A DNA stretch of 64,000 bases from contig JANYGI010000056.1 in NCBI GenBank assembly GCA_025362495.1, forward strand, positions 1 through 64,000. The letters are read 5' to 3'. The translations under genes and the position numbers were made by a program. Shown one piece after another: positions 5,539 through 49,234 of the stretch; within the stretch, counting starts at the first letter, position 1; every line of letters starts with the position of its first letter. The stretch is from Byssovorax sp. Its GTDB lineage: Bacteria; Myxococcota_A; Polyangia; Polyangiales; Polyangiaceae. Under the pieces are notes generated by a model. It worked only from the letters and a program-made list of their open reading frames with translations, did no database searches and had not been told where the DNA came from.

Positions 5539-6303
5539 GCGCGTCAGGGTACCCGGTCCGGCCCCGCTGGCAACACCTACGAGTATGGTCAGAACACGCT
5601 CGCCCGAAGGCGGGTTGGTTGCCGTAGCAACGGATCTCTCGCCCGCCGAACGTGCCATTCGACGAATCCGCCGATCGCTGTCGCCCCAGATCGGCCTATT
5701 CCGACAGACGGCAGCCGAGGCTCGCCGATCTCCGCCAGACTTGCTAGGCAGTGCCGTTACCAAAACTTCTCGTCCAGATCTGTCGAACGCCGCCGCGCCT
5801 GCTGCCGCGCGCTCTCCTGGCCATTCGGCGCCGGTCGCAGACCGCCCGAGGGCCAGGATTGGCCTGCCAGCGTCCCGGAGCTCTCGCCGAGGGGATCTCG
5901 AGCTTGATGACCAACGTTGGCGGGTCTGTCGCGGAGGGGCGAGCACTGTAACCAATACCCGTTTTTCGCGGAGAAGCACCGCATCGCGCTCCGCGCTGAT
6001 CTGGATCACCCGGGACCAGGATGCATCGCGCCCCAGGCTGATCCAGATCACCCCGGACCAGGATACATCGCGCTCCCGGCTGATCTGGATCACCCGGGAC
6101 CGGGATGCATCTCACCCCAGGTTGATCCGGATCACGGAGGAACGAGATGCATCGCCCGCCGGGGTGATCCGGATCACGCGGGACCAGGATGCATCCTGCC
6201 GCGGGCTGATCCGGATCACGAGAAAGCCGGCAGCATTGCTTTCCGTCGCGCTCCCGGTCGACTGGGAGCCTATCCCGCCGCGTTGTAGTTCGGCGAGACG
6301 GCG
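5539..6303. other. 765-base gene-free region with a palindrome array
   Basis: Between the antitoxin start and the stop of the next minus-strand gene I see no convincing protein. All frames across the repeat are open because its period (42 bases) is a multiple of three and lacks stops. Outside the array (5997-6218), 5539-5950 shows no motif that I recognise, and 6250-6269 holds a GCTCCC/GGGAGC hairpin just past the stop of the 257-residue gene, a possible terminator. Confidence 0.6.
5995..6218. repeat. Tandem 42-bp repeat made of two alternating palindromes at an exact 21-bp period
   Basis: Five full 42-bp units start at 5995, 6037, 6079, 6121 and 6163, with a partial sixth at 6205. Each unit holds the 12-bp palindrome TGATCCGGATCA (exact in copies at 6123, 6165 and 6207; one change in copies at 5997, 6039 and 6081) and the 8-bp palindrome GATGCATC (exact at 6020, 6104, 6146, 6188; GATACATC at 6062). 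Centres fall at 6002.5, 6023.5, 6044.5 and on to 6212.5, always 21 bp apart. The 11-base spacers vary much more than the palindromes. Confidence 0.95.
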
Positions 6304-38241: not shown

Positions 38242-38385
38242 TCGTGCTCCCGGCGCGGCGCCCGCCGGCTCCGACGTGGAGACAATTCGCCCCATGAGGC
38301 GCGAACGCCGCGACTATCACGACTGGCGCGCGCTGGTTTCCCGCTCACCGCCGTGGCGCGCCGGTTGCAGCCCATCCACCGCCCA

Positions 38386-39549
38386 ATGCCACTGTTCCCG
38401 CTTCGAGCTTCCCTTCTGGGCGCCGCGCTGCTCGCGGCCGGCTGCGGCGTCCCTGCTCTCACCGTGTCTCCCGGCGGCTTGCGCAGCCCCTACACCGGCT
38501 ATTCGAGCGAGAAATACGGTGACGACAAGATGTGGCTCTGTCGTCCGGATCTCCCGTTCGACGTCTGCCGGAGCGACGCCACGGCGACCGAGCTCCGCGA
38601 CGATCACTCCCGCTCGGTCGTCACCGCCAGGGCGGCGCCGCGGCCGGACGTCGACTGCTTCTATGTTTACCCGACCGTGGATCTCGATCTGCTCCCCGGC
38701 AACGCCGCCGCCGACGCCACGCGGGTCCCCGCCGCGCGCGCGACGCTGAGCCAGATCACCCCGTTCAACGGCGTCTGCTCGCTCTACGTGCCAGTCTACC
38801 GCCAGGTCACGATCGGCACCTACCTCTTCGGCCAGGGCGAGGGGCCCCGCTCCGACGTGGCCTTCTCCGACGTGCAAGACGCTTTCTTCCACTACATGGG
38901 ACAGTACAACCACGGTCGCAAGGTGGTGCTCATCGGCCACTCCCAGGGCGCCGGGATCGTGGTTCGCCTGCTCCAGGACCGCTTCGAGCGCGATCCGGTG
39001 ATGATGGCGCGCTTGCTCCTCGCGATGCCGATCGGCGGGCCGGTCGAGGTGCCGAAGGGCAAGACGAAAGGAGGCACCTTCGACAACCTCCCGCTCTGCA
39101 CCAAGCCCGACGAGATCGGGTGTGTGATCGCCTATCAATCCCGCCCTGCCGGCGGCAAGGTCGGCAAGCCGGCGTTCGTGCCGCAGCCCGGGAACGAGAT
39201 CGCCTGCGTCAACCCTGCGGCGATCGGCGACTCGGGGCCACATCGCTTCTCGCGCAGCCTGTTCCCGCTCACGATCGACTCGCGCCCCTGGCTCCAGGGG
39301 ATCGAGGGCGTCGATACCCCGTTCGTGATGCTGCGCGACTACTACACCGGCGAGTGCACCGACGGGCCCGACGGGTATCGCTACCTCGCCGTCGCCGGCG
39401 CGCCCGAGCCCGGCGATCAGCGGGTGAGCACCGTCGATCTCGCCGCGTCGAGATTCAATGGCACCTTCGGGCTCCACGTCGTCGACTTCCAGTTTCCGCT
39501 CGGCGATCTCGTCGATCAGGTGGCTCGCCGGGCCAAGAAGGTGCATTGA
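38386..39549 (+). CDS. DUF3089 lipoprotein, alpha/beta-hydrolase fold
   Basis: 387 residues from ATG 38386 (MPLFPLRASLLGAALLAAGC gives a lipobox); GTG 38353 is an alternative. VDCFYVYPTVDLDL and QYNHGRKVVLIGHSQGAGIVVRLLQDRFE are DUF3089 hallmarks, the latter with the nucleophile elbow GHSQG. The family is thought to hydrolyse esters or peptides, unproven. The first 280 bases, including the region upstream of the start, are repeated in the pseudogene at 48198. Confidence 0.9.
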   Translation: MPLFPLRASLLGAALLAAGCGVPALTVSPGGLRSPYTGYSSEKYGDDKMWLCRPDLPFDVCRSDATATELRDDHSRSVVTARAAPRPDVDCFYVYPTVDLDLLPGNAAADATRVPAARATLSQITPFNGVCSLYVPVYRQVTIGTYLFGQGEGPRSDVAFSDVQDAFFHYMGQYNHGRKVVLIGHSQGAGIVVRLLQDRFERDPVMMARLLLAMPIGGPVEVPKGKTKGGTFDNLPLCTKPDEIGCVIAYQSRPAGGKVGKPAFVPQPGNEIACVNPAAIGDSGPHRFSRSLFPLTIDSRPWLQGIEGVDTPFVMLRDYYTGECTDGPDGYRYLAVAGAPEPGDQRVSTVDLAASRFNGTFGLHVVDFQFPLGDLVDQVARRAKKVH

Positions 39550-39619: not shown

Positions 39620-40720
39620 ATGGGCAAGAAAAGCGGTTCGGCCGGGCAGCGCGGGAAGAAGAAGCACGCGCGGGAAATGGCGCGCAGGAAGGCTCCGGCC
39701 ACGCGACCGCCCGCGGCTGCGGCGGCGCACGTCGGACGCTCGCGCTCCGGGTGGCTGCCCGCCGAAGAAGGGATCGAGGGGCTCGTCCGCCGCCTCGAGA
39801 TTCACTACCACGAGGCAGCGCACCATGCGGCCGAGCACGCCGGCGTCTCGCCCGCCGAGCTGCCGGGTGTCCTCGTCACGCCGGCGCGGGTGGCGGCGCT
39901 CGGGACACCGGATCTGCTCGCGCGCCTCGGCGCCCTCGGCGTCACCACCGATCGCGACGCGTTCCTGGCCGCCACGGCCACCGCGGGCTCTGCTCTCCAG
40001 TTCGCGACGGAGCGCTGGTTACCGCTCCTCGGCGCCGCGGCCACGGTCCACGATCGCGACCTCGTGCGCCTCGCCGCGTGCGATCTCTGGAAGCGCTTCC
40101 GGCCCGAGGCGCCGTCCACCGAGGGGCTGCTCGACCTGTTCCAGCGGGGTTTCGCGCACGCCCGCAAGCAGGAGGACGCGGCCGCGGTGAGGTTGTGGCT
40201 CGATTTCTGGGCCGCGCTCCGCCCTCGCCTGACGGCGGATCTCCGCACGCTCGACGCGGTCAATGGCTTCTTCGGGGAAGGCTTCACCGAATTCGACACC
40301 TGGATCGAAGTGCTGATCAACGCGACGGAGGGCGTGGTCAAGGGCGAACCCGACCTCGTGCGCCGGGTCGTCGCGCTGCTCGACGAGGTCCATCAACAGC
40401 TCTCCGGCGAGCACGACGAGTACCGCAGCCTGCTCGTGAGGGATCGCGTCGGCTTGCTCTTCTGCGCCGGCGCGCGCTCCGAGGGAGAGCAGATAATGCG
40501 CGCGATCATCGCCCGCGATCCCTCGGAAACGAGCCCGTACCTCGCGCTCTCCGGCCTGCTCGCCCCGGACGAGAGCGAGGATCGCGCCGGGCTCGCCGCC
40601 GCGCTCGCGCTGCTCGAAGAGGCCGCGACGAAGCGCCGGAAAGACAGCGTGGAGTGGGCCCTCGACATGAAGATCAGCGAGCTGCGCGAACGACTTCAGG
40701 CGCTCGGCGCGAACGCGTGA
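39620..40720 (+). CDS. Hypothetical protein, first of a tandem paralogue pair
   Basis: 366 residues from ATG 39620. Lys/Arg-rich N terminus (MGKKSGSAGQRGKKKHAREM), then helical. A clear paralogue of the next gene: RLAACDLWKRFRPEAPSTEG aligns with RLAACELWKRFCTETPSAEG, and FDTWIEVL with FDDWIELL. It is about 80 residues longer at the C terminus (ASLTPYL...KDSVEWALDMKISELRERLQ region), with helical-repeat character. No family recognised. Confidence 0.8.
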   Translation: MGKKSGSAGQRGKKKHAREMARRKAPATRPPAAAAAHVGRSRSGWLPAEEGIEGLVRRLEIHYHEAAHHAAEHAGVSPAELPGVLVTPARVAALGTPDLLARLGALGVTTDRDAFLAATATAGSALQFATERWLPLLGAAATVHDRDLVRLAACDLWKRFRPEAPSTEGLLDLFQRGFAHARKQEDAAAVRLWLDFWAALRPRLTADLRTLDAVNGFFGEGFTEFDTWIEVLINATEGVVKGEPDLVRRVVALLDEVHQQLSGEHDEYRSLLVRDRVGLLFCAGARSEGEQIMRAIIARDPSETSPYLALSGLLAPDESEDRAGLAAALALLEEAATKRRKDSVEWALDMKISELRERLQALGANA

Positions 40721-40792: not shown

Positions 40793-41659
40793 ATGGGCAA
40801 GAAGGACAGCGGAGCCGCGCAGCGCGCCAAGAAAAAGCACGCCAAGGACGTCAAGCGCAAGAAGGCCGTGGCGAAGAAGCCGCGCAACGCGCCTCCGCCC
40901 GACACGGCCGCTCGCATCCGCGGCTGGAAGCCGGTCGACGAAGGCCTCGAGGGGCTCGCGCACCGCACGGGCTATCACTTCTACTCCGCGGCCGTGAGCG
41001 CCGTCGACATCGCCGCGGCCCTCGGCGTCGCGCTGCCAGAGGCGGTGTGGACGATCCCGCGCGTCGCGGCGCTCTCCACCCCGGCTCTCCTCGCGCGCCT
41101 CGCCGAGCTCGGGATTGCCACCGATCTCGAAGCGTTCGTCGCCCTGAGCGCGCCGCTCGACTCGGCCGTGCGCCTCGCCGAAGAGGCCTGGTTCCCGCTC
41201 CGCTCCGCCTCTCCCACGCTCCACGATCGCGACTTTGCCCGCCTCGCCGCGTGCGAGCTGTGGAAGCGCTTTTGCACCGAGACGCCTTCTGCCGAAGGGC
41301 GGCTCGATCTCTACCGCCTCGTGATGGAGCGCGCCGAGGCCGGAGACGAGCCCGCGACCGTCGTCGCCTGGCTCGATCTCTGGGCGGTGATCCGCGCGCG
41401 CCTCACGCCCGAGATCCGGACGATCGCGGCGATTGACGCCCTCTTCGGCAGCCTCTTCAAGTCGTTCGACGACTGGATCGAGCTGCTCGCGGGCGCGGCC
41501 GAGATCGCCGGCGAGAGCGATCCCGGGCTGGCGCTCCGCGCGGCCGACGCGCTCCGCGAAATCTCGGAGCAGCTCTCGGAGCAGGACGGGGCCTGGAAAG
41601 AGCGGATATCGGAGGACGAAGGCGCCTTGCGTTCCCTGGCGCGAGCCGAGATCACGTAG
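40793..41659 (+). CDS. Hypothetical protein, second of a tandem paralogue pair
   Basis: 288 residues from ATG 40793, beginning MGKKDSGAAQRAKKKHAKDV, nearly the same as its neighbour. Paralogue of the upstream gene over residues 1-280, lacking its last 80 residues. Basic N terminus, helical body, no catalytic motif. Fifteen bases before the beta-propeller lipoprotein gene. Duplication of the pair is part of the block discussed with the pseudogene at 48198. Confidence 0.8.
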   Translation: MGKKDSGAAQRAKKKHAKDVKRKKAVAKKPRNAPPPDTAARIRGWKPVDEGLEGLAHRTGYHFYSAAVSAVDIAAALGVALPEAVWTIPRVAALSTPALLARLAELGIATDLEAFVALSAPLDSAVRLAEEAWFPLRSASPTLHDRDFARLAACELWKRFCTETPSAEGRLDLYRLVMERAEAGDEPATVVAWLDLWAVIRARLTPEIRTIAAIDALFGSLFKSFDDWIELLAGAAEIAGESDPGLALRAADALREISEQLSEQDGAWKERISEDEGALRSLARAEIT

Positions 41660-41674: not shown

Positions 41675-43426
41675 ATGCGTCGACTTCGCTCTTCTTCCTC
41701 GCTACGCGCCCTCCTCGTCATCCTCGCCGCGGGCGGCGTCGTCAGCGCCTGCAATGCGATCTTCGGGATCGAGCCCGGTCAGCTCTCCGGCAGCTCCGCG
41801 GCGGGCACCGGCGGGAGCGCGGCGACCAGCACCGGCACCAGCGCGACGAGCACCGGCGGCGCCGCGAGCGCGACCACCGGCAGCGCCGGCGGGGCGAGCG
41901 CGACGAGCACCGGCTCGGCCAGCAGCTCGAGCACCGGCGTCGTCTTCGACTACCCGGGCGATTTACTCTGGGCATCGACACCGATGAACGCCAACGGGGC
42001 AACCTTCGGCGTGACCTACGACGCGACTGGCAACAAGCTCTTCACGGGCTCCGTCGCTCTCATCGATCCGGCGGGGACGAGCTTCGGCGGGCCGTCGTTC
42101 CCCGCCAGCGCCGACGGCAGCAACGACGTCTTCGTCGCCAAGTACGACGCGAACGATGCCCACCTGTGGAGCCATGTCTTCCCGGGCCTCGGGAATCAAT
42201 GGGGCGCCGGCATCGCGACCGACACGGGTGGGAGCGTGCTCCTCACCGGGACGCTGCTCTCCAGCGCTGACTTCGGCACGGGCTTCCTCACGGCCACGCC
42301 CCCGCCCGACGACGCCGGCGGCTACGATGGCGCCGATATCTTCGTGGCCAAGCTCTCCGCCGCCGGCCAGACGACGTGGAGCTTCGCCTTCGGCGACTCC
42401 GACGATCAATATGGCATCCGGACGGCCGTCGACAGCAAGGGCAACGTCATCGTCGCCGGCGCTGGCCGCGGGCAGATCCCGTTCACAGGGACGAACAAGG
42501 GCTATATCAACGATCCTCTGGCGCCGGGCATCTTCGTCTTCAAGCTCGGCAGCGACGGCAAGCAGGTGTGGATCTGGAAGTTCCCGGTCGACTACGACTG
42601 TCGGTTCAGCTTCTACGGGGCGCCCTGCATGCCTGTGGGCCTCGCCATCGACGCTTCGGACAACATCGTTCTGGTCACCACCTCGAAGTCCGACCGTCCC
42701 AATGCCTATGTCGGCCTGGGCGAGCCGGTCCCGAACAAGTACCGCCCGCTCGACGGCGGCCACGACATCGCCCTCTGGAAGCTCGACGCGAACGGCGACA
42801 CCCTCTGGGGCCGGGTGATCGGCGGCGACGACGCCGATCCGGCGCAGAACAGCGATCAATGGGCGAGCTCGGTCGCCGTCGATCCCGCGGGCAACATCGT
42901 GGTCGGGGGCTCGTTCTCGAAGAGCGTGCGCCTCGGCAAGAAGCCGGGAGAGCACGTGATCTCCGGCAGCTCCGCCGATCTCGATCTCTTCGTCGCCAAG
43001 CTCAGCCCGGCGGGAGATCCGCTGTGGGAGAAGGCCTTTGGCGACCTCGGCGACCAGGAGACGAAGGGGCTCGCCGTCGACGCCTCCGGCAACATCGCCC
43101 TCACCGGCGACGTGCAGTACGATCCCGCGGCCATTGGCCTCGATTTCGGGACTGGCCTCCTCGGCGCGCCGAGCGACGGCGGGATGGACATCGGGGCCGA
43201 CTACTTCATCGCCAAGCTCGACCCGCAGGGCAAAGGCCTCTGGGCCAAGCGCATCTATGGCGTCTTCGAGCAACACGGCATGTCGGTCGCCCTCGACCGG
43301 TCGGACGCGCTCCATCCGGGCCGGACGCTCACGGGCGGCTGGTTCTTTGGCAACATGCCGCTCGGCGTCGCGTACACTTTCCAGGCGCCGTCGTATGCCC
43401 CGTTCCTCGCGGAGTACACGCGGTAG
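41675..43426 (+). CDS. Lipoprotein with SBBP-like beta-propeller repeats
   Basis: 583 residues. Signal RALLVILAAGGVVSAC gives a lipidated Cys at residue 26, followed by about 60 residues of Ser/Thr/Gly/Ala linker. From residue 90 on, repeats of the type W...(F/P)G...D.....IA.D..GN...TG..., e.g. WSHVFPGLGNQWGAGIATDTGGSVLLTG, WGRVIGGDDADPAQNSD with SVAVDPAGNIVVGGSF, LFVAKLSPAGDPLWEKAFGD. These are the SBBP (seven-bladed propeller) repeats common in myxobacterial surface proteins. Binding function presumed. Its last 30 bases and a middle segment recur in the pseudogene at 48198. Confidence 0.9.
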   Translation: MRRLRSSSSLRALLVILAAGGVVSACNAIFGIEPGQLSGSSAAGTGGSAATSTGTSATSTGGAASATTGSAGGASATSTGSASSSSTGVVFDYPGDLLWASTPMNANGATFGVTYDATGNKLFTGSVALIDPAGTSFGGPSFPASADGSNDVFVAKYDANDAHLWSHVFPGLGNQWGAGIATDTGGSVLLTGTLLSSADFGTGFLTATPPPDDAGGYDGADIFVAKLSAAGQTTWSFAFGDSDDQYGIRTAVDSKGNVIVAGAGRGQIPFTGTNKGYINDPLAPGIFVFKLGSDGKQVWIWKFPVDYDCRFSFYGAPCMPVGLAIDASDNIVLVTTSKSDRPNAYVGLGEPVPNKYRPLDGGHDIALWKLDANGDTLWGRVIGGDDADPAQNSDQWASSVAVDPAGNIVVGGSFSKSVRLGKKPGEHVISGSSADLDLFVAKLSPAGDPLWEKAFGDLGDQETKGLAVDASGNIALTGDVQYDPAAIGLDFGTGLLGAPSDGGMDIGADYFIAKLDPQGKGLWAKRIYGVFEQHGMSVALDRSDALHPGRTLTGGWFFGNMPLGVAYTFQAPSYAPFLAEYTR

Positions 43427-43771: not shown

Positions 43772-46573
43772 TCACGCGCTCCCGCCGCACGCCGCGGCGG
43801 GATCCCCTTCCACGAGACGAACCTCCACCGCGGGATCGAGCAGGTAGCCGTCTTCCCGGGTGCGCAGCACGTGGCGCAGACCGAGCTCGCGCAGCCGGAA
43901 GAGGATCCCCCGCAGCCGGTTCGCCGCCGCGTCGTGGAGAATGCGCTGCCCGGGCCACCCCTCGGCGATCAGCGCGTCGGGTGACAGCGCCTCCCCGGGC
44001 CGCTCGCGGCGCGCGCGAGCGAGGGCCAGCAGCAGCCGCGCGAGCACGTGGCGCGCCTCGCAGCGGACGATCTCCCCGCCGGGAGGGATGAACCACTGGC
44101 CCGCGGCGTGGACCAGCAGCGGCGCGCGCTCGCGCTCGTCCGGCGACGACGGCGCGGATCGCCCGAGCGCGCGCGCCACCATCCGCATCATCACCCGGAG
44201 CTCGTAGAGGCGCTCAGCGACGGGGAGTCCCCCCGGCACGGCGGCGCGCGCGGGCTCGCGCCGACGCAGCGCCTCCTCACGCAGCGCGCTCGCCGAGGCC
44301 GTGTCGCCCTGCGACGCGAGCAGCGTCGCTTCGGCCAGATCCACGAGGACGCTCGCCAGCTCCGCCATCCAGACCTGGAGCTCGTCGCCCCGCGCTTCCA
44401 TCGCAGCGCGCGCCCGCGCGACGAGCACCCGGCCCCGCGCGACGTTCCCGAGCTCGGCCTCGATCACCCCGAGCACGCCCTCGCAGAACGAGGCGAACCA
44501 GTCGCCCGGATCGAGCTGCCCCAGCACCTCCGCGAGCTCGATCTGCGCCTCGGAGAGCCGACCGAGCTCGAAGCTGGCGACGGCGCGCCACGCGGCGGCG
44601 GTGGCCCCGTAGCGCGCCACGCCGTGGACGCGCTCCCAGTCGATCAGCGCCGTGAACCCGGCGCGCGATCGATCGAAGCGCTCCTCGGCGTGGTCGACGA
44701 TCGCGCTGAAGAACAGGACGATCTCGTCGGCCCAGCCCCCGCGCGGGAACGAGCGACGGTGCCTGTCGACGAGCTGATCCAGGTAGGCGCGCGCGCGATC
44801 GATCCGGCTCGTCTCGACCAGGATGTTCACGAGCACGGCGAGCGCGCGGATCTCCTGGCCCACGTTCTCGAGCGAGAGATGGATCGAGAGCGCCCGTCGC
44901 GCCGCGTCGATCGCCGCGTCGTGGTGGCCGAAGAACCGCTCGGCGAGGGCCAGCCGGGAGAGCGCCTCGCCCCGGAGCCCGCGCGCGCCCTCGGCGTCGG
45001 CGAGCCCCAGCGCGCGGACGGTGAGGTCGTGCGCTTCGCGCCACGCGCCCGCCCAGCTCCGGAGTTGCGCGAGGTGGAGCAGAGCCCGCGCCTCGACCTC
45101 GCGGGCGCCTTCGACCCGCGCGAGCGAGAGCGCGAGATCGAGGTCCGACGAGACCGCCGAGCGCCGCTGACGAGCGCGCAGCTCCGCCCGGGCGAGCAGC
45201 GCCCGCGCCCGCAGCGCCCCGGGGACAAGCGGCGCGTCGGCGTGATCGAGCGCGCGCTCCAGGCGGCCGAGGAAGACGCTGATCGGCCCTTTCGTCACCA
45301 CGATCGGCGCGAGCGCGATCAGCAACCGGAGCCCGGACGCGAGCCAGCCCGACGGAGGCGCCCCCGGATCGCGCGGCGTCGTCGCGCGATCGAGGCAGCG
45401 ATCCGCGGCCGCGAGGAGGTTGTCGCGCTCCTCGTCGAAGTGCTCGAGGGCGAGCGCGATCCCCGGGCCGTCGACGCGTCGCTGGAGCGCCTCGGCATGG
45501 TGTACGAAATACGCTGCGTGACGGTCGCTCGCCGCGCCCGCGCTCGCGAGCTTCGCGCCGGCGTACTCGCGGATGCTGAGGAAGAGCGCGAGGCGAACCT
45601 CGCCGCGATCGCCGCGCTCGTCGGCGCGCAGGAGCGACTTGTCCCGCAGGGCCTGGAGCAGATCGAGCACGCTGGGCCCGTCCCGATCACCGAGCTCGAT
45701 CACCGCCTCGGCCGCGGCCGCGTCGAAGCTGCCGCGGAACACCGAGCACTGCGCGAGCGCGTCCTGCTCGGCCGGCGAGAGCGGATCCCACGACGCGTCG
45801 ATGGCAGCGCGGAGCGTCGCCTGCCGCGGCGTCACCCCGCGCGCGGGGCGCGTGAGCACGTCGAAGCGCCGGTCGACCCGCGCCAGCAAGGTCGCGGCGC
45901 CGAGCACGCGTGAGCGCGCCGCGGCGAGCTCGATCGCCAGCGGGAGGCCGTCGAGCTCCCGCGCCAGCGCCCCGATGACGCGGGCCTCCTCGTCGCCCGG
46001 CGCGTAGCCCGGCGCCAGCGCCTGCACGCGCGCGACGAAGAGCTGCACCGCCTCGCTCGTGGCCGGATCATCGCCGGGGAGCGGCAAGCTCAGCGGCTCC
46101 AGCTCGTGCACGATCTCCAGCGCCGACCGCAGCCGCTCGCGCGAGGTCACCAGGAACTGCGCCTCGGGCGCCTGGCTCAGCCAGACGTCCAGCGCCCGCT
46201 CCGCGACGCCGACGATCTGCTCGACGTTGTCGAGCACGAACAGCGCCGGCCCCCGCGCGCCGAGGACCTCGCCGAGGTGGGCGACGAGCGCGGCGTCGTC
46301 CATCGCGCGCGTGAGCGGCGCCGCGGCGGCCCGCGCCACGGCCTCGCACAGGCTCTGCGCGTCGTGGGCCTCGGTGAGATCGCAGAACACCGCCGGGCCG
46401 AAGCGCCGCCGGTGCGACTCGGCGAAGCGCCGCGCCAGCGTCGTCTTCCCGATCCCCGCGGTGCCGAGGAGCGTGATCAGGGGCGCCCCGGCGCCGAACG
46501 ACTCCTCGAGCCGCGCCAGATCCCGCGCGCGGCCCACCATCACGGCGGCGGGATGGGAGCGCCCTCGCTGCAC
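43772..46573 (-). CDS. STAND ATPase with TPR region and C-terminal winged-helix domain
   Basis: 933 residues from GTG 46573 (ATG 46540, MVGRARDL, is an alternative). Residues 10-330: NB-ARC-type ATPase with P-loop TLLGTAGIGKTTLARRFAE, Walker B ALFVLDNVEQI and ARELDGLPLAIELAAAR, as in AfsR/LuxR-family STAND regulators. Residues 370-780: helical repeats (TPR-like, e.g. ALLHLAQLRSWAGAWREA). Residues 840-925: RCEARHVLARLLLALARARRERPG ... NRLRGILFRLRELGLRHVLRTREDGYLLD, which fits an OmpR/SARP-type winged helix. In SARP-type regulators this domain is normally first; here it is last. Divergent from the LRR gene by 128 bases. Confidence 0.87.
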   Translation of the reverse strand: MQRGRSHPAAVMVGRARDLARLEESFGAGAPLITLLGTAGIGKTTLARRFAESHRRRFGPAVFCDLTEAHDAQSLCEAVARAAAAPLTRAMDDAALVAHLGEVLGARGPALFVLDNVEQIVGVAERALDVWLSQAPEAQFLVTSRERLRSALEIVHELEPLSLPLPGDDPATSEAVQLFVARVQALAPGYAPGDEEARVIGALARELDGLPLAIELAAARSRVLGAATLLARVDRRFDVLTRPARGVTPRQATLRAAIDASWDPLSPAEQDALAQCSVFRGSFDAAAAEAVIELGDRDGPSVLDLLQALRDKSLLRADERGDRGEVRLALFLSIREYAGAKLASAGAASDRHAAYFVHHAEALQRRVDGPGIALALEHFDEERDNLLAAADRCLDRATTPRDPGAPPSGWLASGLRLLIALAPIVVTKGPISVFLGRLERALDHADAPLVPGALRARALLARAELRARQRRSAVSSDLDLALSLARVEGAREVEARALLHLAQLRSWAGAWREAHDLTVRALGLADAEGARGLRGEALSRLALAERFFGHHDAAIDAARRALSIHLSLENVGQEIRALAVLVNILVETSRIDRARAYLDQLVDRHRRSFPRGGWADEIVLFFSAIVDHAEERFDRSRAGFTALIDWERVHGVARYGATAAAWRAVASFELGRLSEAQIELAEVLGQLDPGDWFASFCEGVLGVIEAELGNVARGRVLVARARAAMEARGDELQVWMAELASVLVDLAEATLLASQGDTASASALREEALRRREPARAAVPGGLPVAERLYELRVMMRMVARALGRSAPSSPDERERAPLLVHAAGQWFIPPGGEIVRCEARHVLARLLLALARARRERPGEALSPDALIAEGWPGQRILHDAAANRLRGILFRLRELGLRHVLRTREDGYLLDPAVEVRLVEGDPAAACGGSA

Positions 46574-46700
46574 CGCCGACGAGTATCACACCCGCCCGCC
46601 GGGGCGCGGCCGCGCGATCTAATCCCAAATAATGCCGCTTTCCCGCGGCGAGATCGTACGTCGTGGCCCTCGCCGACGCGGCGAAGAAGGAGCCCCGATC

Positions 46701-48197
46701 ATGACCCACTATCCCTCGCTCGACGACGCGCTGCTCGACGCCGAGAACGCCACGAGCCTCGCCCTCGACGCCGGGGAGCTCGAGCGCTTCTGCCAGGATC
46801 CCGCGCAGCTCCCCCACGTCACCGCCATCGACGTCGACGACGAGGTGACCCGCGTCCCGCGCGAGCTGCTGGCGATCCACCGACTGACGAAGCTCTCGTT
46901 CGCGGGGACGCTGGCGCGCTTTCCCGTGGAGCTCGCGGCGCTGCCGGCGCTCGAGGCCCTCTACCTGTACGACTGCAAGAAGATCAAGGCGATCCCCGCG
47001 GAGATCGGCCAGTTCCCTGCCCTGCGCGACCTCACCCTGCGCGAGTGCAAGCTCACGGCGATCCCGGCCGAGCTCGGCGCGCTCGCGCTGCTCGAGGACC
47101 TCGAGCTCTCGCTCGGCGTCGTCGCCGATCCCGAGGCGATGGGCGCCACGCTGGCGAGCTTGCCCGCGCTGCGCGTGCTGGCGCTGACGCCGGAGGGCGG
47201 GCGGAGTACGAAGAAGGGCCTCCGGCGGATCCCGACGTCGCTGCTCCGCGCGCCGTCGCTGACGACGCTCAAGATCACCTGGAGCCTCGACGAGCTCCCG
47301 AGAGGCCTCTCCCAGCTCCGGCATTTGCGGGTGCTCGAGGTCCCGCGCTGCTCGTTCACAGCGCTCCCCGACGACCTCGGCGGCCTCGCGGCGCTCGAAG
47401 AGCTCGACATCAGCGGTGGCGCGCTCGTCGCGCTGCCGGAGAGCCTCGGTGAGCTCCGCTCGCTGAAGAAGCTCGTCGCCTTCGCCAGCCTCCTGGAGAA
47501 GCTGCCCGATAGCCTGTTCCTTCTTCCCGCGCTCGAGGAAGTGACGGTATCGAACAACAAGCTCCGTGCTTTGCCGGAGACGCTGGGGCGCTGTCGTTCT
47601 CTCACGACGCTCGACATCGAGCACAACCCGATCGAAGGGTTCCCGGCGTCGCTCGGCGAGCTGACCACGCTCACGCACCTCTCGCTCGGATGCACGGCGA
47701 CTCCCGAGCTCCCCGAGTCGCTGCGACGGCTTCACCACCTCGAGGAGCTGCGGGCGGAGGGCTCCGGGGGCGGCGTCTGGACGAAGCGGATCACCGAGAT
47801 CCCCGCGTGGATCGGGGAGCTCGAGAACCTCGAGGTCCTCTCGTTCCGCGACAACCCCATCACCTCGTTGCCGCCCTCGATAGGCCTCCTCCGCAAGCTC
47901 CGCGTGCTGGAGATCGTCCGGGGAACGCTCTCGCCCTTGCCGACCGAGATCGGCGACTGCACCGCGCTCGAGCAGCTCACCCTCTGTGGCACCAAGCTCG
48001 GCCATCTCCCGGAGGAGCTCTCGCGGCTCGTCAACCTGAAGCAAATCGACGTGCGGGGCAACGGGCTCGCCCGCATGCCGCGGAGCCTGGCCGCGTTCTC
48101 GAACCTGCGCCGGTGGGGCAACTACATCTTCGACGGAAACGACTTCTCCGAGAAGGAAAAGGCCCGGATCAAGGCGGCGATCCCTCAGGCCACCTGA
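46701..48197 (+). CDS. Leucine-rich repeat protein
   Basis: 498 residues from ATG 46701, with AAGGAG nine bases before. Fifteen or so leucine-rich repeats of the LxxLxxLxLxxxxLxxLPxxLxxL type (e.g. LEALYLYDCKKIKAIPAEIG, LKQIDVRGNGLARMPRSLA). No signal peptide, no kinase or ROC domain attached; cytoplasmic binding platform or effector. Divergent to the STAND gene; both may be controlled from the same 128 bases. Confidence 0.9.
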   Translation: MTHYPSLDDALLDAENATSLALDAGELERFCQDPAQLPHVTAIDVDDEVTRVPRELLAIHRLTKLSFAGTLARFPVELAALPALEALYLYDCKKIKAIPAEIGQFPALRDLTLRECKLTAIPAELGALALLEDLELSLGVVADPEAMGATLASLPALRVLALTPEGGRSTKKGLRRIPTSLLRAPSLTTLKITWSLDELPRGLSQLRHLRVLEVPRCSFTALPDDLGGLAALEELDISGGALVALPESLGELRSLKKLVAFASLLEKLPDSLFLLPALEEVTVSNNKLRALPETLGRCRSLTTLDIEHNPIEGFPASLGELTTLTHLSLGCTATPELPESLRRLHHLEELRAEGSGGGVWTKRITEIPAWIGELENLEVLSFRDNPITSLPPSIGLLRKLRVLEIVRGTLSPLPTEIGDCTALEQLTLCGTKLGHLPEELSRLVNLKQIDVRGNGLARMPRSLAAFSNLRRWGNYIFDGNDFSEKEKARIKAAIPQAT

Positions 48198-48569
48198 GCG
48201 ATGAGTGGAGGCTAATGCCCCATGCGGCGCGCGCGACGGCCCTCTGCGCCTGATCCGACGGTCGCGCCCGCTCGCGCCGCGCCTCGCTCGCGCCTTGCCA
48301 AGCGGCGTCGGCCTCCTGCCGCACGCCCTCGTCACGACTTGCTTGCTCGGCGCCGCGCGGCTGTCCGCCGGCTGCGCGCTTCCGGTGCTCACCGTATCTC
48401 CGGGCGGCCTGCATGGCCCTTCTACGGGGTAGTCGAGCGAGACGTACCGCGACGACAAGAGGTGGCTCTGTCGCCCGGATCTCCCCGTCGACGTCTGCGT
48501 CGATTTCGGGACTGACCCGCTCGCCGCGCGCCGTCGTATGCCCCGTTCCTCGCGGCGTACACGCGATGA
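48198..48569 (+). pseudogene. Chimeric pseudogene: DUF3089 5' end fused to beta-propeller 3' end
   Basis: 48198-48497 aligns with 38275-38570, the upstream DNA and first codons of the DUF3089 gene: CTCACCGTATCTCCGGGCGG versus CTCACCGTGTCTCCCGGCGG, and AAGAGGTGGCTCTGTCGCCC versus AAGATGTGGCTCTGTCGTCC. TAC at TGY is now TAG (48430-48432), a stop. From about 48498 the sequence switches in frame to a stretch of the beta-propeller gene (GATTTCGGGACTG, 43142 on), then after a second junction to its last 40 bases (CGCCGTCGTATGCCCCGTTC at 48530, ending TGA 48567 where the parent has TAG). A frameshift at the second junction confirms decay. Confidence 0.85.
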
Positions 48570-48622: not shown

Positions 48623-49234
48623 ATGCGACGTCTGCTCCTTGCCCTCCCGCTCCTCGCGTTTGCCCTCCGTGCCTGCGCCGATCGCGAGCCGCCCGCCAAG
48701 CCTGGCCCGGCGGCCCCCACCACGGCTGCAGCCACCCCGGTGACCACCGACATGAAGACCCTCGCCGACTTCTCCGCCGTCCCCTTCAAGGCCTCCGAGC
48801 CGAAGTCCCTCGCGGGCTACAAGGGCGATGTCGTCCTCGTCGTCAACATCGCGGCCAACTGCGGCTACACCCCGCAGATGGGCCCTCTCGCCGAGCTCGA
48901 TCAAAAGTATTCGGCCAAGCACTTTCGCGTCGTCGGCTTCCTCAGCGACGACTTCGGGCACCAGGGCGGCACGACCGACGAGGTCACGTCCTGCTCGCTC
49001 AAGTACAAGGCCGCCTTCGATGAATACGCGATCATTCACGTCAAGAAGGGGCCCGAGCAACACCCGCTCTTCGCCTGGCTCACCTCGCAGCCGGGGATGA
49101 CGGCCGACGTGAGCTGGAACTTCAACAAGTGGCTCCTCGGCCGCGACGGGCACCTCGTCGCCCGCTGGTCGAGCGACGTCGAGCCGGGATCGGCCGAGAT
49201 CGCCAAGGCCGTCGAGGCCGCGCTCGCAAAGTAA
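48623..49234 (+). CDS. Glutathione-peroxidase-like lipoprotein
   Basis: 203 residues from ATG 48623, giving a lipoprotein signal (LLLALPLLAFALRAC). The thioredoxin-fold GPx core shows VVLVVNIAANCGYTPQMGPL with the catalytic Cys, and WNFNKWLLGRDGHLVARW with the conserved Trp/Asn. FGHQGGTTDEV is close to the FGxQEPG element. Reduces peroxides, here probably in the periplasm or on the outer membrane, with thioredoxin rather than glutathione in most bacteria. It directly follows the chimeric pseudogene. Confidence 0.9.
   Translation: MRRLLLALPLLAFALRACADREPPAKPGPAAPTTAAATPVTTDMKTLADFSAVPFKASEPKSLAGYKGDVVLVVNIAANCGYTPQMGPLAELDQKYSAKHFRVVGFLSDDFGHQGGTTDEVTSCSLKYKAAFDEYAIIHVKKGPEQHPLFAWLTSQPGMTADVSWNFNKWLLGRDGHLVARWSSDVEPGSAEIAKAVEAALAK

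Follow-up and report, generated by a model that had tools for sequence, protein, structure and literature searches.

What is the short stretch of DNA between an LRR gene (46632-48197, + strand) and a glutathione-peroxidase-like (GPx) gene (48623-49234, + strand), and why does it resemble the two ends of a gene block that lies about 10 kb upstream on the same strand? The locus was found in the window, by which we mean the whole stretch of 64,000 nucleotides of Byssovorax sp. DNA analyzed here. An earlier note, made from the letters alone, had placed the stretch at 48198-48569 and interpreted it as the collapsed duplicate of a four-gene block. These coordinates are accurate to within a few bases, as the sequence in question, here called the relic, spans 48205-48568 on the + strand. 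It starts 8 bp past the stop codon of the LRR gene and ends about 55 bp short of the start of the GPx gene, and neither gene is touched. Among 108 genomes of the family searched, the LRR gene was found, at the threshold used, in its own genome alone.

The intact block consists of four genes on the + strand. The first, a DUF3089 gene (38386-39549; Pfam PF11288), is predicted to encode a lipoprotein of the esterase-like alpha/beta hydrolase type with a GHSQG motif. This surviving gene most likely begins at the ATG at 38386 and has a lipoprotein-type signal, and the motif together with the signal makes a cell-surface esterase the likely product. DUF3089 proteins include characterized esterases, which form lipolytic family XV, for example Est10 (PMC4431682), and the surviving gene shares with these the Pfam domain, the GHSQG motif, and a secretion-type N terminus. 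A second DUF3089 gene is located on another contig of the genome (G000:C6:28984-30123, 54%), here called the C6 gene. The DUF3089 gene of the block is followed by two tandem paralogues, parA (39620-40720) and parB (40793-41659), neither of which has a Pfam family. The latter is 43% identical to parA and C-terminally shorter; it is without some 80 to 100 C-terminal residues that are present in parA and in three homologues in genus g19, and could thus be a truncated duplicate in its own right. A propeller-like lipoprotein gene (41675-43426) closes the block. Between the block and the LRR gene, the - strand carries a gene for a large STAND-type ATPase (43772-46573; AAA, NB-ARC, and NACHT matches).

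Self-BLAST of the window and focused BLAST gave three collinear + strand matches between the relic and the block, arranged in the relic as they are in the intact block. The N-terminal coding remnant of the DUF3089 gene (48338-48498) matches 38408-38568 at 126 of 161 positions (78%), without gaps and with an E value of 3e-33. A remnant of the inner part of the propeller gene (48497-48529) is identical to 43137-43169 at 28 of 33 positions (85%). The last remnant (48528-48568) represents the 3' end of the propeller gene, with 48528-48565 matching 43385-43422 at 37 of 38 positions (E value of 1e-12). Ahead of these, a remnant of the DUF3089 5' flank (48205-48231) corresponds to 38276-38303. This upstream match is weak alone, with 52 of 2,000 random segments scoring equally well; the 10.8-Mb genome contains just three instances of its core 15-mer, GCCCCATGMGGCGCG, and two of them are at these flanks, where they stand at a nearly conserved spacing, 119 and 121 nt, ahead of the coding match. 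Homology therefore starts upstream of the coding region and finishes at the propeller stop codon, which are both ends of the block, and no homology above chance was found past that stop codon. Aligned base by base, the relic and the block share more than short chance matches, and the pseudogene described earlier, which joins the start of the DUF3089 gene to two propeller segments in block order, is confirmed.

For two pieces of just 33 to 38 bp, in a genome that is rich in propeller-like genes (58 matched stretches), a fortuitous match within GC-rich, repeat-rich propeller DNA has to be considered, and the first propeller piece resembles a motif common to many propellers. We regard this explanation as extremely improbable, as it is refuted by the near-perfect identity of the 3' piece, the E value of the DUF3089 part, the collinearity of the pieces, and a distinctive 18-mer in the first propeller piece. 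This 18-mer, TCGATTTCGGGACTGRCC, occurs at two places in the 10.8-Mb genome when one mismatch is allowed, namely, 43140 and 48500, and its reversed control has zero occurrences in the genome. Its confinement to two genomic sites excludes both chance and a different propeller gene as the source. The C6 gene was rejected as a direct source of the DUF3089 part, with a DNA-level match of 26 bp versus 161 bp to the block gene. A match of 48515-48589 on contig C193, in a gene that by its sequence is methylmalonyl-CoA-mutase-like, was gapped, with 73% identity over 79 bp, and was taken as compositional chance. No RNA family was found in the relic interval.

The reading frame of the relic is disabled. 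A Tyr codon of the intact DUF3089 gene is TAG in the DUF3089 frame of the relic, and a clear counterpart of the ATG at 38386, or any recognizable start codon at that place, is absent. The first junction, from the DUF3089 part to the inner propeller piece, retains the original propeller frame, and the second shifts it, putting the propeller tail in a different frame from the sequence that precedes it; at 48568 the relic closes with a stop codon in the propeller frame. The in-frame first junction, the stop mutation, and the frameshift that had been noticed earlier are thus all borne out. As read from the sequences, the bases shared at each junction amount to about 2 bp at most, and a repeat-mediated mechanism is therefore not indicated. 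About 53 N-terminal codons of the DUF3089 gene are left, and, unlike the lipolytic family XV esterases such as Est10, the pseudogene has no catalytic part, as the GHSQG motif is absent. With significant homology to an intact gene of the same genome and a disabled reading frame, the relic is a duplication pseudogene.

In the relic, both end genes of the block are in their original order and on the same strand, and any trace of the two middle genes is absent, since neither self-BLAST nor focused BLAST gave a match between the relic and 39.5 to 41.7 kb. This agrees with the earlier statement that both paralogues are missing. The block was not found in any other genome examined and is, as far as can be seen, specific to the source lineage. 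A DUF3089 gene of the block kind is present in 13 of the 108 family genomes, its own included, with none elsewhere above 50% identity, and among the named genomes scanned none came closer than 42%. At five DUF3089 loci of relatives and at the C6 locus, neither the middle genes nor the block propeller adjoins the gene within flanks of several kilobases, and the middle-gene homologues in three genus g19 genomes are likewise without DUF3089 or the block propeller within flanks of that size. Since the DUF3089 and middle-gene loci lie apart elsewhere, block content appears to be labile.

This lability, seen in the three g19 homologue loci and the six other DUF3089 loci, together with the missing middle-gene remnant, would fit a copied block of only the DUF3089 and propeller genes, with the paralogues joining the surviving block later. 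Such a two-gene block is a variant compatible with the collapse of a second block copy, and we hold it as a tentative possibility: a single deletion could take out both paralogues just as easily, and the two-gene form is seen in no relative. Of the history first proposed, in which the whole block was duplicated and then lost internal parts, the collapsed DUF3089-to-propeller copy with internal losses is the most probable reading, but its four-gene content is unproven, as remnants of the middle genes are absent.

The age of the copy was estimated from the 53 codons of the DUF3089 part, which differ from the intact gene by 20 silent and 15 replacement changes (dS of 0.76, dN of 0.14, and dN/dS of 0.18, with a bootstrap range of 0.10 to 0.34). 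In simulated copies that were neutral for at least half of their life, a replacement share this low was reached in 0 to 0.4% of the runs, and the simulations fit with selection on the copy for roughly three-quarters or more of the time. This rules out a recent, dead-on-arrival copy for the DUF3089 part, which evolved mostly under purifying selection. The relic also retains bases common to the C6 paralogue and a DUF3089 gene from another family of the order at positions where the intact gene has changed, indicating that it was not newly copied from the present gene. Taken together, the silent divergence, the dN/dS ratio, the simulations, and these retained bases indicate that the duplication is old and the loss comparatively late. 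The suggestion that block duplication is ongoing in this region is not upheld, given the age of the DUF3089 part and the lack of any other block-scale duplication in a self-comparison of the window, whose signals other than the relic came from the tandem paralogues and from short internal repeats. At 5981-6220, the same comparison showed tandem repeats that are imperfect and have partial inverted symmetry.

The two parts of the relic are unequal in silent divergence. Silent changes number 1 at about 17 silent sites in the propeller pieces and 20 at about 42 such sites in the DUF3089 part (Fisher P = 0.002, for a post hoc test with few sites), so one undisturbed, clock-like event is a poor fit to both parts together. 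This suggests that either gene conversion kept the two propeller genes similar or the propeller part came from a second, younger event. Under the latter alternative, an old stand-alone second DUF3089 gene was later truncated by recombination with a recent propeller 3'-end fragment. The strong inequality speaks for it, as does the composition of the propeller changes, 4 replacement and 1 silent, which is as expected for a copy dead from arrival. However, the agreement of order, strand, and both end points with the block would then be coincidence, two propeller pieces are present and are themselves in order, and the numbers are small and the test post hoc. We therefore regard two events of different age as unlikely. 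We favor gene conversion within an old block pair, since the relic corresponds to the block in order, strand, and both end points. It is possible, if still somewhat doubtful, that one block was lost only after two copies had been kept side by side for long, a time in which the DUF3089 genes diverged and conversion held the propeller genes alike.

The relic is thus probably the nonfunctional leftover of a duplicate DUF3089-to-propeller block, a copy that was old, was long under selection, and was then collapsed by deletions. An old duplication would have produced the second copy, in which selection would have acted on the DUF3089 gene through the greater part of its later history. In the collapse, one deletion would have joined the beginning of the DUF3089 gene to the propeller gene; its size would be about 4.6 kb for a copy with the content of the present block. 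A second deletion, of about 0.2 kb, would have removed most of the propeller end and shifted the frame. The stop mutation arose at some stage.

Duplication pseudogenes are a common and already known kind of sequence, and the relic is an ordinary gene fossil that leaves general views unchanged. It resembles the decayed duplicates beside surviving bacterial clusters in being a second copy of neighboring genes broken by deletion, a nonsense change, and a frameshift. In contrast to the usual decayed duplicates, this copy was apparently maintained through most of its existence, and its parts are unequal in silent divergence. The relic is a small, clean example of how clusters are copied, kept, and lost in large bacterial genomes, and it illustrates that a count of silent and replacement changes can distinguish a copy that is old and was maintained from one that is recent and dead.
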